Assembly (NCBI GenBank): GCA_005789825.1
Contig: SXWY01000139.1
Span: 1 to 43,064 of the forward strand
Length of the DNA: 43,064 nt
Source: Burkholderiales bacterium
GTDB lineage: Bacteria; Pseudomonadota; Gammaproteobacteria; Burkholderiales; Burkholderiaceae_C
Direction of reading: 5' to 3'
Positions within the stretch are counted from its first letter, which is position 1. The number at the start of each line of letters is the position of its first letter. Made by a program: the position numbers and the translations under genes. Below the pieces are notes generated by a model. That model was not told the origin of the DNA. It worked only from the letters and a program-made list of their open reading frames with translations, and did not search any database. Positions 11,133-14,155 of the stretch are shown here, one piece after another.

Positions 11133-11996
11133 TTATTTGCTGGTCGTGGCAGACGGTGTTTCAGGCTGGGGTTTGCTGACGGGGTCTGCTGGCAACGAGA
11201 CTGAAGGTGCTTTTTCCGCCCCGGCAGCAGGCAAAACCGTGGCTGGGTCTGTGCTGGTCGCCGTGGCTTGTGCAGCATTGCCAGTCGGCTCTTGGGCAGT
11301 GGGCATGGCAGGCGGCGGCTCAAGGACAGGCGACACGGCAGGCGCAGGTTCGCTCGCAGTGGCTTGGGCTTTCTCGTCACCGGCTTGCTGCCTGAGCAGA
11401 GCCGCTGCAGCCAAGGCCACCAAAAACAATGCCAAAATTTTGATCAAGTAATTGGCATTGCTGCTTTCTGGCGGCGGCGGTTGATCCGCCTCAGTTGCTG
11501 ATGCTGCTGGCACAGCGCTGTCTGGTGCTTCGGACTGTGCCAAGTTGTCAGACTCGCCTGTTTGTTCATTTGTTGGGCTGGCTTGTTTGCTCTGGTCCGG
11601 ATTTTCGGGGGGCTGTGCCAGGACATGCCAAGATTCACTGCGAGAAATGGCGGCGGTTTCTGCGGGTGCGGAAGCATGGCTGGAAAGTGCTCCGCGAAAG
11701 GTGGTTTGGCCGTCAACAACATCTTCGTCCACTGGCGATGCTGGGTCTTGCTGCATCACCTCAGGCGTGACCTGCCCAAACAGCTGGGCTTCGGTCATAC
11801 CAAGCAAAGCTGCGACTTTGCGTGCTGCGGTGAGCTTGACGTTTTCACTGTAGAAAGCTGTCATGCCCCCTTCTTCGATTTGCTTGATTTGTTTAGTGGA
11901 CAAACAGGCCGTAGTGGCCACATCCGAGACGGCTAATCCCAAAGCCTCACGCTTGCGTCGAACGGTTTGACCGTCAATCTGGGATATGTCCGACAT
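11133..11996 (-). CDS. RodZ-like helix-turn-helix protein with one membrane segment and Pro/Ala-rich tail
   Basis: This 287-aa protein is preceded by AAAGG six bases before its ATG. Residues about 10-65 form an XRE/RodZ-type HTH (VRRKREALGLAVSDVATTAC, KQIKQIEEGG, AARKVAALLGM). A Pro/Gln/Ser-rich linker follows. A single TM helix (YLIKILALFLVALAAAALL) lies at about 184-202. The rest is a low-complexity Pro/Ala/Thr tail, presumably periplasmic. RodZ links MreB to the cell-wall machinery by the same HTH-TM layout. Here the gene is the last of a bactofilin operon, so a role in anchoring or organising bactofilin filaments is plausible. No enzymatic domain is seen. DNA binding is also possible. Confidence 0.75.
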   Translation of the reverse strand: MSDISQIDGQTVRRKREALGLAVSDVATTACLSTKQIKQIEEGGMTAFYSENVKLTAARKVAALLGMTEAQLFGQVTPEVMQQDPASPVDEDVVDGQTTFRGALSSHASAPAETAAISRSESWHVLAQPPENPDQSKQASPTNEQTGESDNLAQSEAPDSAVPAASATEADQPPPPESSNANYLIKILALFLVALAAAALLRQQAGDEKAQATASEPAPAVSPVLEPPPAMPTAQEPTGNAAQATATSTDPATVLPAAGAEKAPSVSLPADPVSKPQPETPSATTSK

Positions 11997-12018
11997 GCAT
12001 GGCCTTTGATCAAAAAAC

Positions 12019-12483
12019 TTACTTTACCAGCAGCAGTTCACCTTTGATAGACGCGCCTTTTTGCACCGACAGCGTTTGGTACACCACATGGCCATCCACC
12101 GAAGCTGATGATGTCACGATCAATTCGCTGCATGTCGCGGTACCAGAAAATTTACCTTTGATATGCAAACTAGAGCAGGTCACGACTCCCTCGACTTGAC
12201 CGCGTGAACCAATGGTCAATTCGTCCACTTGTACTTGTCCGTTCAAAGATCCTTCCACGTGGATAGCACCTTTGGCTGCAATTTCGCCGCGAAACGAAAA
12301 GCCTTCGCTCAAAATCGAAGGCTTAGAAGCGTTGGAGGAGATCATGTCCATCATGTTGTTTCTCTGTGGTTGTGCAACTGGCTGATTGTCTGGGCTGGTT
12401 TCAACGGGTGCATTGGGCTTGGTAGCTTCTGCAGCAGGAGGGGTAGCAGTGTTAGGGGTTACTGTTTTGGATTTGTTGAACAT
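12019..12483 (-). CDS. Bactofilin (with disordered N-terminal tail)
   Basis: This 154-aa protein has an N-terminal ~50 residues rich in Pro/Ala/Thr/Gln (disordered) and a DUF583 beta-helix core from about residue 55. The core is built of short glycine-punctuated repeats (FRGEIAAKGAIHVEGSLNGQ, IGSRGQVEGVV, IKGKFSGTATCSELIV, SSASVDGHVVYQ). Bactofilins polymerise without nucleotide into membrane-associated filaments that position cell-wall enzymes. Its start lies 32 bp inside the 3' end of the M23 peptidase gene, so the two are tightly coupled. It is one of two bactofilins in this operon and the one with the longer tail. Confidence 0.9.
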   Translation of the reverse strand: MFNKSKTVTPNTATPPAAEATKPNAPVETSPDNQPVAQPQRNNMMDMISSNASKPSILSEGFSFRGEIAAKGAIHVEGSLNGQVQVDELTIGSRGQVEGVVTCSSLHIKGKFSGTATCSELIVTSSASVDGHVVYQTLSVQKGASIKGELLLVK

Positions 12484-13501
12484 ATTGCGCGGTCCTGATC
12501 ACTTTTTGCGGATTGACAGGATATCCACCTACCAAGATCTCAAAATGGAGATGCTTGCCAGTAGAGGAATCGCCCGTGTTTCCGATGTAGCCCAGCAGGC
12601 TTTCTGTGGTGACCTTGTCACCCACTTTGACCAACAATTGCGCCAAATGTGCGTACAAAGATTCAACGCCGTTTAAGTGCCGAATCATCACGGTGTTGCC
12701 ATACTGAGGATGGTATTCTGCCATGACCACAATACCCGGTTTGACCGCGAACACTTTGTCATCCCCCGTGTGACTCATCAAGTCGAGGCCAGTATGGAAA
12801 TGTGAACGTCCGGTGAGCGGGTGTTTTCGTATGCCGAAATCAGAGGAAACGCTGTAATTGGCTACCGGCAAATGGCCGGGTAATGCATACAACACCTCGC
12901 GCAATGCACGGTTGGTTGCCAATTCGTCAGCCACTTTGCCTCGCAATAAAGGATTGGATTGGAGATCACCTTGAGGGGAGTAGCCACCATTGGCTGAATT
13001 TTGTTGAATGATGCCAACGATTTTCTCGGTCAATCCCGAAGATTCCAGTTGGCTTTTGAGGGTTTCGTTTTCCTCAGAGACGGCCACCATCGACGTTTCA
13101 ACAAACCGCCTGATGCTCATGTCGCGATCGCGGATGGTTTGCGCCAGAGTGACCATCTGTTCTTCGGTGAGTGATGCCGCGTCGGGGGAATTGGTGTCTA
13201 CCGAACTGGTCAGCAACGCGCGGTACACCTCTTCATGCGATTTCTCCAGGCGGGCTCGGCTGACACCCAGCACCAAACTGGTGATCACCAAAAAAGCTAT
13301 CAAGCCCAGCAAAGCTGCAGACGTGATCAAAATACCTCTGGCGGCAAATCGCTGAAACCCGGCAGAAATATGGAAATACTTGAGGTCACCGCTTTGCTCA
13401 AGAATCAGTTTCACATCGTGGTACTCGCGAGACCACATGCGCTTAATCAACAAGGGAATACGGCGGGTGAATGCTAGAGAAGAGTAAGACAAAAAACGCA
13501 T
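12452..13501 (-). CDS. Membrane-anchored M23 (LytM-type) peptidoglycan endopeptidase
   Basis: This 349-aa protein has a cytoplasmic N-terminus of about 55 residues and one TM helix (ILITSAALLGLIAFLVITSLVLG). A Glu/Gln-rich probable coiled coil follows (about 80-160), then a C-terminal M23 domain (about 220-335). The zinc and catalytic residues are all visible: H and D in SHFHTGLDLM, and HxH in GKHLHFEILVGG, so it should be an active endopeptidase cutting peptide crosslinks in the periplasm. A Shine-Dalgarno-like GGTGAG precedes the ATG. It lies between two bactofilin genes, the usual genetic partnership in which bactofilin localises an M23 hydrolase. Confidence 0.9.
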   Translation of the reverse strand: MRFLSYSSLAFTRRIPLLIKRMWSREYHDVKLILEQSGDLKYFHISAGFQRFAARGILITSAALLGLIAFLVITSLVLGVSRARLEKSHEEVYRALLTSSVDTNSPDAASLTEEQMVTLAQTIRDRDMSIRRFVETSMVAVSEENETLKSQLESSGLTEKIVGIIQQNSANGGYSPQGDLQSNPLLRGKVADELATNRALREVLYALPGHLPVANYSVSSDFGIRKHPLTGRSHFHTGLDLMSHTGDDKVFAVKPGIVVMAEYHPQYGNTVMIRHLNGVESLYAHLAQLLVKVGDKVTTESLLGYIGNTGDSSTGKHLHFEILVGGYPVNPQKVIRTAQYVQQIQNSNP

Positions 13502-13522
13502 GAACTCACCATGTATAGGGCA

Positions 13523-13915
13523 TCAACTGCCCGATGGCTTGGTCTGCTGATGGCTTGCACCGGTAGATGCGGCGGCAGGCGGCTCAGAGCCTTGGTTAAG
13601 GGCGCCCTCGATTTCACCGCCCTTTTCAATTTCTATTTCGGCGTAATGGATTTTTCCAACGATTTTTCCAGTGGCGCGAACGATCAAACTTTTCTCGCTG
13701 ACGATGGTGTGGTGCAACTGGCCTCTGACATCGATCATTTTGGCGGAAACCCTGCCTGTGATTCGCCCAGTGGTGCCAATGAGCACTTCCTCAGCAGTCA
13801 AATCGCCTTCAATCACACCATTGATCACAGCCTTTGAAGGTACGGTGAAAGCACCTTTCACGACCACGCCATCGCCGATCACGACGCTTTCTAATGTATC
13901 TGCTGGATTTGCCAT
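13523..13915 (-). CDS. Bactofilin (short form)
   Basis: This 130-aa protein is almost all DUF583 beta-helix: VVIGDGVVVKGAFTVPSKAV, INGVIEGDLTAEEVLIG, TGRITGRVSAKMIDVRGQL and IVRATGKIVGKIHYAEIEIEKGGEIEG. A short Ser/Gln/Pro-rich C-terminal tail follows. It is the first gene of the operon bactofilin, M23 peptidase, bactofilin, RodZ-like. A strong Shine-Dalgarno (AAGGGAG) stands five bases before the ATG, suggesting high expression, as expected for a filament-forming protein. It differs from the second bactofilin in having its disordered tail at the C-terminus, so the two may copolymerise or recruit different partners. Confidence 0.9.
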   Translation of the reverse strand: MANPADTLESVVIGDGVVVKGAFTVPSKAVINGVIEGDLTAEEVLIGTTGRITGRVSAKMIDVRGQLHHTIVSEKSLIVRATGKIVGKIHYAEIEIEKGGEIEGALNQGSEPPAAASTGASHQQTKPSGS

Positions 13916-14155
13916 ACTTGCTCCCTTGTTTTGATCTTATCAAAGATCAAATATAAATTAACTTTTTTATTGAAGCTCTTGATTTAATTGAAAAAAAAAG
14001 CAAAACCTTGCATTTGAAAACGCTGAAAAAACAGGCGGCACCTAAGTTAAATGGATATTTTTTTCAAAAAATACAATACCAAATAACTCATTAAATGAAT
14101 AATTGTTTATTGATTGAATAAGTTGTCAGCTATTTGCAAATCAACAACAAACCGT
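13916..14155. other. AT-rich intergenic region upstream of the bactofilin operon
   Basis: About 240 bp with long A and T tracts (for example a run of nine A residues around 13990) stands out against the GC-richer genes. No ORF of interest is present. It must hold the promoter of the bactofilin operon, with TATATT and TTTATA-like boxes near 13952-13965 on the minus strand. The A-tracts suggest intrinsic curvature or binding of an H-NS-like or other nucleoid protein. I cannot fix a single promoter. Confidence 0.6.
13930..13951. promoter_or_regulatory. Perfect 9-bp inverted repeat upstream of the bactofilin operon
   Basis: TTTGATCTT-ATCA-AAGATCAAA is a perfect 9-bp dyad with a 4-bp centre, ending 15 bp upstream of the first bactofilin start codon. 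It could be an operator for a dimeric regulator or a hairpin in the mRNA leader just before the Shine-Dalgarno. It is not a terminator for a plus-strand gene, since no plus-strand gene precedes it. Confidence 0.6.

Follow-up and report, generated by a model that had tools for sequence, protein, structure and literature searches.

The question raised by this locus is whether a RodZ-like membrane protein encoded beside two bactofilins and an M23 peptidase serves a bactofilin filament or MreB. The window, i.e. the whole stretch of DNA analysed (43,064 nt), corresponds to contig C123 in a MAG of the Limnohabitans type (Comamonadaceae) with a size of 2.1 Mb and a completeness of 88%. Among records with names, those nearest to it belong to Limnohabitans and to Comamonadaceae MAGs, and Limnohabitans sp. 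Jir61 (L132) and B9-3 (L149), both isolates, are among them. A sequence-only reading had placed a bactofilin-M23-bactofilin-HTH operon at 11133-13915, and four minus-strand ORFs were found there in the order BacI (13523..13915, bactofilin, 130 aa), M23a (12452..13501, membrane-anchored M23 endopeptidase-like protein, 349 aa), BacII (12019..12483, bactofilin, 154 aa) and HTH1 (11133..11996, RodZ-like protein, 287 aa). Neighbouring ORFs are separated by gaps of no more than 22 nt or overlap; the BacII ORF overlaps the 3′ end of M23a by 32 nt, and the HTH1 ORF starts 22 nt past BacII.

The four genes form a module, as had been proposed, and the module is kept across the Limnohabitans-type genus. 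HTH1 generated matches in 34 of 37 sampled genomes of the genus and in none of 24 genomes from other families of the order. The order BacI-M23a-BacII-HTH1 was found in all 28 genus loci inspected, as far as contig ends permit, and HTH1 directly follows BacII in 57/57 Limnohabitans-type loci of the named genome set, which partly overlaps the set of 28. The four-gene arrangement is more than chance, since no Limnohabitans-type locus examined departs from this order. The cultured strains Jir61 and B9-3 both carry the operon, which is thereby open to experiment. A MAG titled Bordetella parapertussis (L108) also bears the Limnohabitans-type operon and its neighbours; the name is probably wrong.

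The M23a product generated a hit of 97.1 bits on PF01551 and has a single N-terminal TM segment at about residues 62-80 by hydropathy. The metal-site motifs H236xxxD240, H285 and H317xH319 are present, and these five residues fall in invariant columns of an alignment of 13 orthologues, so that the product looks like an active membrane M23 enzyme, in agreement with the sequence-only reading. The cytosolic segment ahead of the TM is conserved as well, D29, I33, E35, Q36, L40 and Y42 being invariant in the same 13 orthologues. M23a shares with LmdC-type enzymes an intact metal site, an N-terminal cytosolic segment followed by a TM, and an adjoining bactofilin gene, here one on each side.

Both flanking genes encode bactofilins scoring far above the curated PF04519 cut-off of 27.9 bits. 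BacI (69.5 bits) has its domain at residues 12-106 and a C-terminal disordered tail, whereas BacII (79.3 bits) has its domain at residues 56-150 and an N-terminal disordered tail; these domain limits bear out the opposite tails described earlier. The two also differ at their starts. BacII begins with MFNKSK, and most orthologues start with MF(N/S)K, which resembles MFSKQAKS, the membrane-targeting sequence of Caulobacter crescentus BacA (PMC12448750). The N-terminus of BacI, MANPADTLESVV (orthologue consensus M(A/S/T)N..(S/D)(S/T)(L/F)ESVVIGDG), is without such an MF-K membrane-targeting start. The genome of the window contains two more bactofilin genes, at L017 5498-5956 (contig C168) and L018 1340-1750 (contig C135); no M23 or HTH match was seen beside either at the sensitivity used.

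Upstream of BacI, the AT-rich leader (13916..14025, minus strand) carries, immediately 5′ of an AAGGAG-like site, a promoter-like element (TTTGATAAGAT / TTTGCTAAAAT) that is conserved. Side-by-side comparison of 48 orthologous upstream regions revealed that TCAATaAAATCAA and TTTGnTAAnAT elements in this leader are conserved across much of the genus, while a promoter and terminator consensus scan did no better than shuffles. From this conservation, the leader is likely the operon promoter and perhaps also a regulator site.

The product of the last gene had been described as having the RodZ layout of HTH, TM and low-complexity tail, and this layout was recovered. The AlphaFold2 model of HTH1 contains a confident HTH at residues 9-72 (pLDDT > 90 across much of residues 11-70) and a TM helix at 179-205, with the other regions disordered; hydropathy places the one TM at 183-201, after the cytosolic HTH and a disordered linker. 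The C-terminal tail of 86 residues is rich in Ala, Pro, Ser and Thr and weakly conserved among orthologues, and no peptidoglycan-binding domain was seen in it. In the cytosolic linker, at residues about 117-132, a subset of orthologues share the conserved motif RSE.LH.LAQPPE, a possible binding peptide. HTH1 is thus like RodZ of E. coli and Thermotoga maritima, a protein that normally assists MreB in the elongasome, in its N-terminal Xre-like HTH, one TM and periplasmic tail. Against HTH_25 (PF13413, cut-off 24.6 bits), HTH1 of the window scored a sub-threshold 22.1 bits and the orthologue at L128 scored 25.5 bits, over the cut-off.

The same domain may instead belong to a membrane-tethered DNA-binding protein, either an operon regulator or a tether between nucleoid and bactofilin filament. 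In the L128 orthologue HTH_3 scores higher than HTH_25, and it is over its cut-off there and in the L083 orthologue. The nearest solved folds of HTH1 are the Cro/Xre DNA-binding domains of C.BclI, 434 Cro and SinR, and K35, Q36 and Q39 of helix 3 are invariant among orthologues. Myxococcus PadC, which has a role in chromosome arrangement, offers a precedent for such a tether. It is bound by the bactofilin BacP (PMC12448750). The net charge of the HTH domain, about +1 as in RodZ, argues against DNA binding, and the structure matches also include the RodZ-type domain of Staphylococcus aureus YmfM. The candidate operators were rejected on conservation: a GATC near-palindrome 5′ of BacI was conserved in only 2 of 48 loci, and the near-palindrome TTTGATCAAA 5′ of HTH1 in only 2 of 54. 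A structure search with the HTH1 model gave no match at E ≤ 0.001 and mostly Xre regulators below that stringency, so the fold is unable to separate RodZ from DNA-binding roles. Overall, we regard a DNA-binding function of HTH1 as unlikely.

Although RodZ-like in layout, HTH1 departs from RodZ in several features that mark the family: RodZ_C, ispG linkage and the aromatic MreB contacts are all missing from it, and its gene lies in a bactofilin-M23 operon. RodZ_C (PF13464) was without a match in HTH1 or its orthologues in a Pfam profile search, whereas a canonical Comamonadaceae RodZ scores 89 bits. In E. coli RodZ, the aromatic residues that contact MreB are F60 and Y64. When the sequences were aligned to the 2WUS_R segment of T. 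maritima RodZ, the MreB-contact positions Y53 and Y57 were V/I and A/V in HTH1 (29 sequences); canonical RodZ of Comamonadaceae has F and L there, and other families mostly have F and F. The replacement of the aromatic residues hints at lost MreB binding in HTH1 but is weak as a test: the canonical Comamonadaceae RodZ itself departs at Y57, and in Polynucleobacter an apparently sole RodZ-like protein, also divergent, has I/V and A (n = 12), both aromatics being lost. A PDB sequence search with HTH1 returned RodZ 2WUS_R only at E = 1.5, with a weak alignment.

This absence is not confined to HTH1. RodZ_C was detected in 118 of 119 genomes of other genera of the family, mostly at 60-94 bits, while the 37 genomes of the Limnohabitans-type genus yielded only three borderline matches of about 23-24 bits, all of them in a second RodZ-like HTH-TM protein, HTH2. 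Canonical RodZ is therefore missing from the whole genus. The sequence-only reading had left the presence of an authentic rodZ near ispG to be checked; none lies there in the genome of the window, where ispG directly follows rlmN (L084 2-1900), and in relatives of the order canonical rodZ adjoins and precedes ispG. The best HTH_25 match in this genome (C116, 34.7 bits) was rejected as RodZ, being a 133-aa protein without a TM-like segment.

HTH2 is encoded elsewhere in the genome of the window (contig C189; L020 97-1089), which rules out HTH1 as the only RodZ-like protein. It keeps a divergent RodZ_C-like domain, and its C-terminal region aligns with that of Polynucleobacter RodZ-like proteins, which are themselves weak RodZ_C scorers; its residues at the Y53/Y57 positions are I and V/A/S (14 sequences). 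HTH1, HTH2 and the stand-alone divergent RodZ-like protein of Polynucleobacter share an FYS-type HTH motif, whereas the RodZ_C-like periplasmic domain is kept by the latter two and not by HTH1. In a tree of the HTH domain, canonical RodZ stood apart from HTH1, HTH2 and the Polynucleobacter proteins with support of 100/100, a tree of only 66 columns with a long stem that calls for caution over long-branch effects. The shared motif and the weak RodZ_C scores suggest gene transfer or a shared RodZ replacement between two genera of freshwater plankton, Polynucleobacter and Limnohabitans. No bactofilin neighbour was seen at 23 Polynucleobacter-type RodZ-like loci. The FYS-type protein with weak RodZ_C was recorded at 25 Polynucleobacter loci, and in one Polynucleobacter genome (G067; L180 1441-2800) a pair of RodZ-like HTH genes lies in tandem, of which the first encodes just 133 aa.

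In the genome of the window, MreB is followed by mreC, mreD and mrdA, and MreB is kept in 61/61 genomes of the genus, its best match being partial or weak in a few fragmentary assemblies. With HTH2 also encoded elsewhere, the earlier proposal that HTH1 replaces the MreB-RodZ link is not supported. Many Limnohabitans-type genomes (G015, G033, G359, G404, G409, G411, G414 and G428 among others) have two full-length MreB genes, at about 490 and 470 bits. A different role, in which HTH1 is an accessory RodZ working with MreB and the operon joins the elongasome to the bactofilin-M23 enzyme through a bifunctional linker, draws on these same observations, as MreB, often in two copies and lacking canonical RodZ, needs some partner, and the HTH of HTH1 is RodZ-related and aligns, if weakly, with 2WUS_R. 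It is made unlikely by the non-aromatic residues at the Y53/Y57 positions, by the RodZ_C region, which HTH1 lacks and HTH2 keeps, making HTH2 the better candidate for an MreB partner, and by the loss of HTH1 along with the bactofilin operon while MreB remains. This loss is seen in three genomes of the genus (G005, G017 and G023), in which MreB is kept but HTH1, M23a and RodZ_C were all without a match.

The distribution of the peptidase indicates how the module may have been assembled. Among 151 genomes of the family, none outside the genus had a full-length M23a (about 650 bits); the best match elsewhere in the family, 134 bits, is at L213, a locus of another genus that carries a distant BacI-M23-BacII triad without HTH1. 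Because of this triad and the co-absence in G005, G017 and G023, the BacI-M23-BacII triad is probably the older unit, to which HTH1 became tied in the genus, and HTH1 would appear to have been added, in this genus alone, to a bactofilin-M23 module of a known kind. The strict linkage of HTH1 with M23a, including their co-loss, would also be expected if HTH1 served to chaperone or stabilise the M23 enzyme and were not a filament adaptor, in the manner of Helicobacter pylori Csd7, which stabilises Csd1 (PMC9507126). The L213 triad, with an M23 enzyme and two bactofilins, implies that M23a-type enzymes can manage without HTH1, and HTH1 has a short periplasmic tail that is disordered and weakly conserved; we consider a Csd7-like role very unlikely.

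HTH2 is also associated with genes of this kind. At ten loci of the genus, one cluster HTH2-M23b-Bac3-BacI-M23a-BacII-HTH1 was found; a bactofilin-M23 cluster with HTH2 adjoins minCD at three loci (L080, L092 and L094), and HTH2 lies directly before the bactofilin gene Bac3 at two (L090 and L096). In the genome of the window, the M23b-Bac3 pair (C166) and HTH2 (C189) are on separate contigs. Both HTH1 and HTH2 thus appear drawn to bactofilin-M23 genes, and no other indirect evidence speaks as strongly for a functional link.

Taken together, these observations favour a dedicated envelope module of bactofilins and peptidase that acquired a RodZ-derived membrane protein within the Limnohabitans lineage, a reading to which we assign a probability of about 0.55. 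Comparable modules are known. In Hyphomonas neptunium and Rhodospirillum rubrum, LmdC-BacA likewise consists of a bactofilin beside a TM-anchored M23 enzyme with a short cytosolic segment, encoded, as here, by overlapping or abutting genes, and LmdC residues 1-38 bind BacA (PMC10945521). That system has one bactofilin and no RodZ-like gene, whereas the Limnohabitans operon has two opposite-tailed bactofilins and an HTH membrane protein. The CcmA-Csd1-Csd5-Csd7 system of H. pylori likewise combines a bactofilin and an M23 enzyme (Csd1) with single-pass membrane proteins binding either, and the cytosolic N-terminus of Csd5 recruits CcmA to the envelope (PMC9507126). Csd5 lacks an HTH and has an SH3 domain in the periplasm, and homology between it and HTH1 was not found. 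A literature search for Limnohabitans with bactofilin returned nothing, and one with RodZ only a single unrelated review.

If M23a works as LmdC does with BacA, its conserved cytosolic segment would bind the bactofilin polymer and so place the periplasmic endopeptidase. HTH1 would use its HTH domain to dock on that polymer or M23a and, much like Csd5 with CcmA, would link the filament to the envelope through its TM and flexible periplasmic tail, the outcome being locally altered wall growth, e.g. curvature. Cell curvature is a plausible output because it is modulated by BacA and LmdC in R. rubrum (PMC10945521) and because curved rods are among the described Limnohabitans species (PMC3031073). 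We infer binding of HTH1 to a bactofilin from gene order only, and an adaptor for the bactofilins is likely its role. Operon membership, however, indicates shared expression and not binding; a Cro/Xre-type fold with an invariant helix 3 leaves room for DNA binding; and the tail is weakly conserved, with no peptidoglycan-binding domain seen. HTH1 seems dispensable for bringing BacII and M23a to the membrane, so an adaptor is also not obviously needed.

Bactofilin-M23 modules are already known as a kind; what is new is a clade-wide, well-conserved RodZ-like fourth member. A broader and more tentative proposal, which we regard as possible but rather unlikely, is that the RodZ family switched its cytoskeletal partner: Limnohabitans would have lost the actin-linked canonical RodZ, HTH1 and in part HTH2 would have become dedicated adaptors of bactofilin filaments and M23 enzymes, and MreB would work without RodZ or with HTH2 only. 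Through gene linkage, this freshwater genus, with MreB, without canonical RodZ and with RodZ-like proteins in bactofilin-M23 operons, offers a natural experiment that bears on how bactofilin filaments connect with wall enzymes and the MreB machinery, and the cell shape of G005, G017 and G023 would be informative in this respect. If HTH1 binds bactofilin, the HTH of RodZ would be a module for docking to cytoskeletons in general, with no restriction to MreB.
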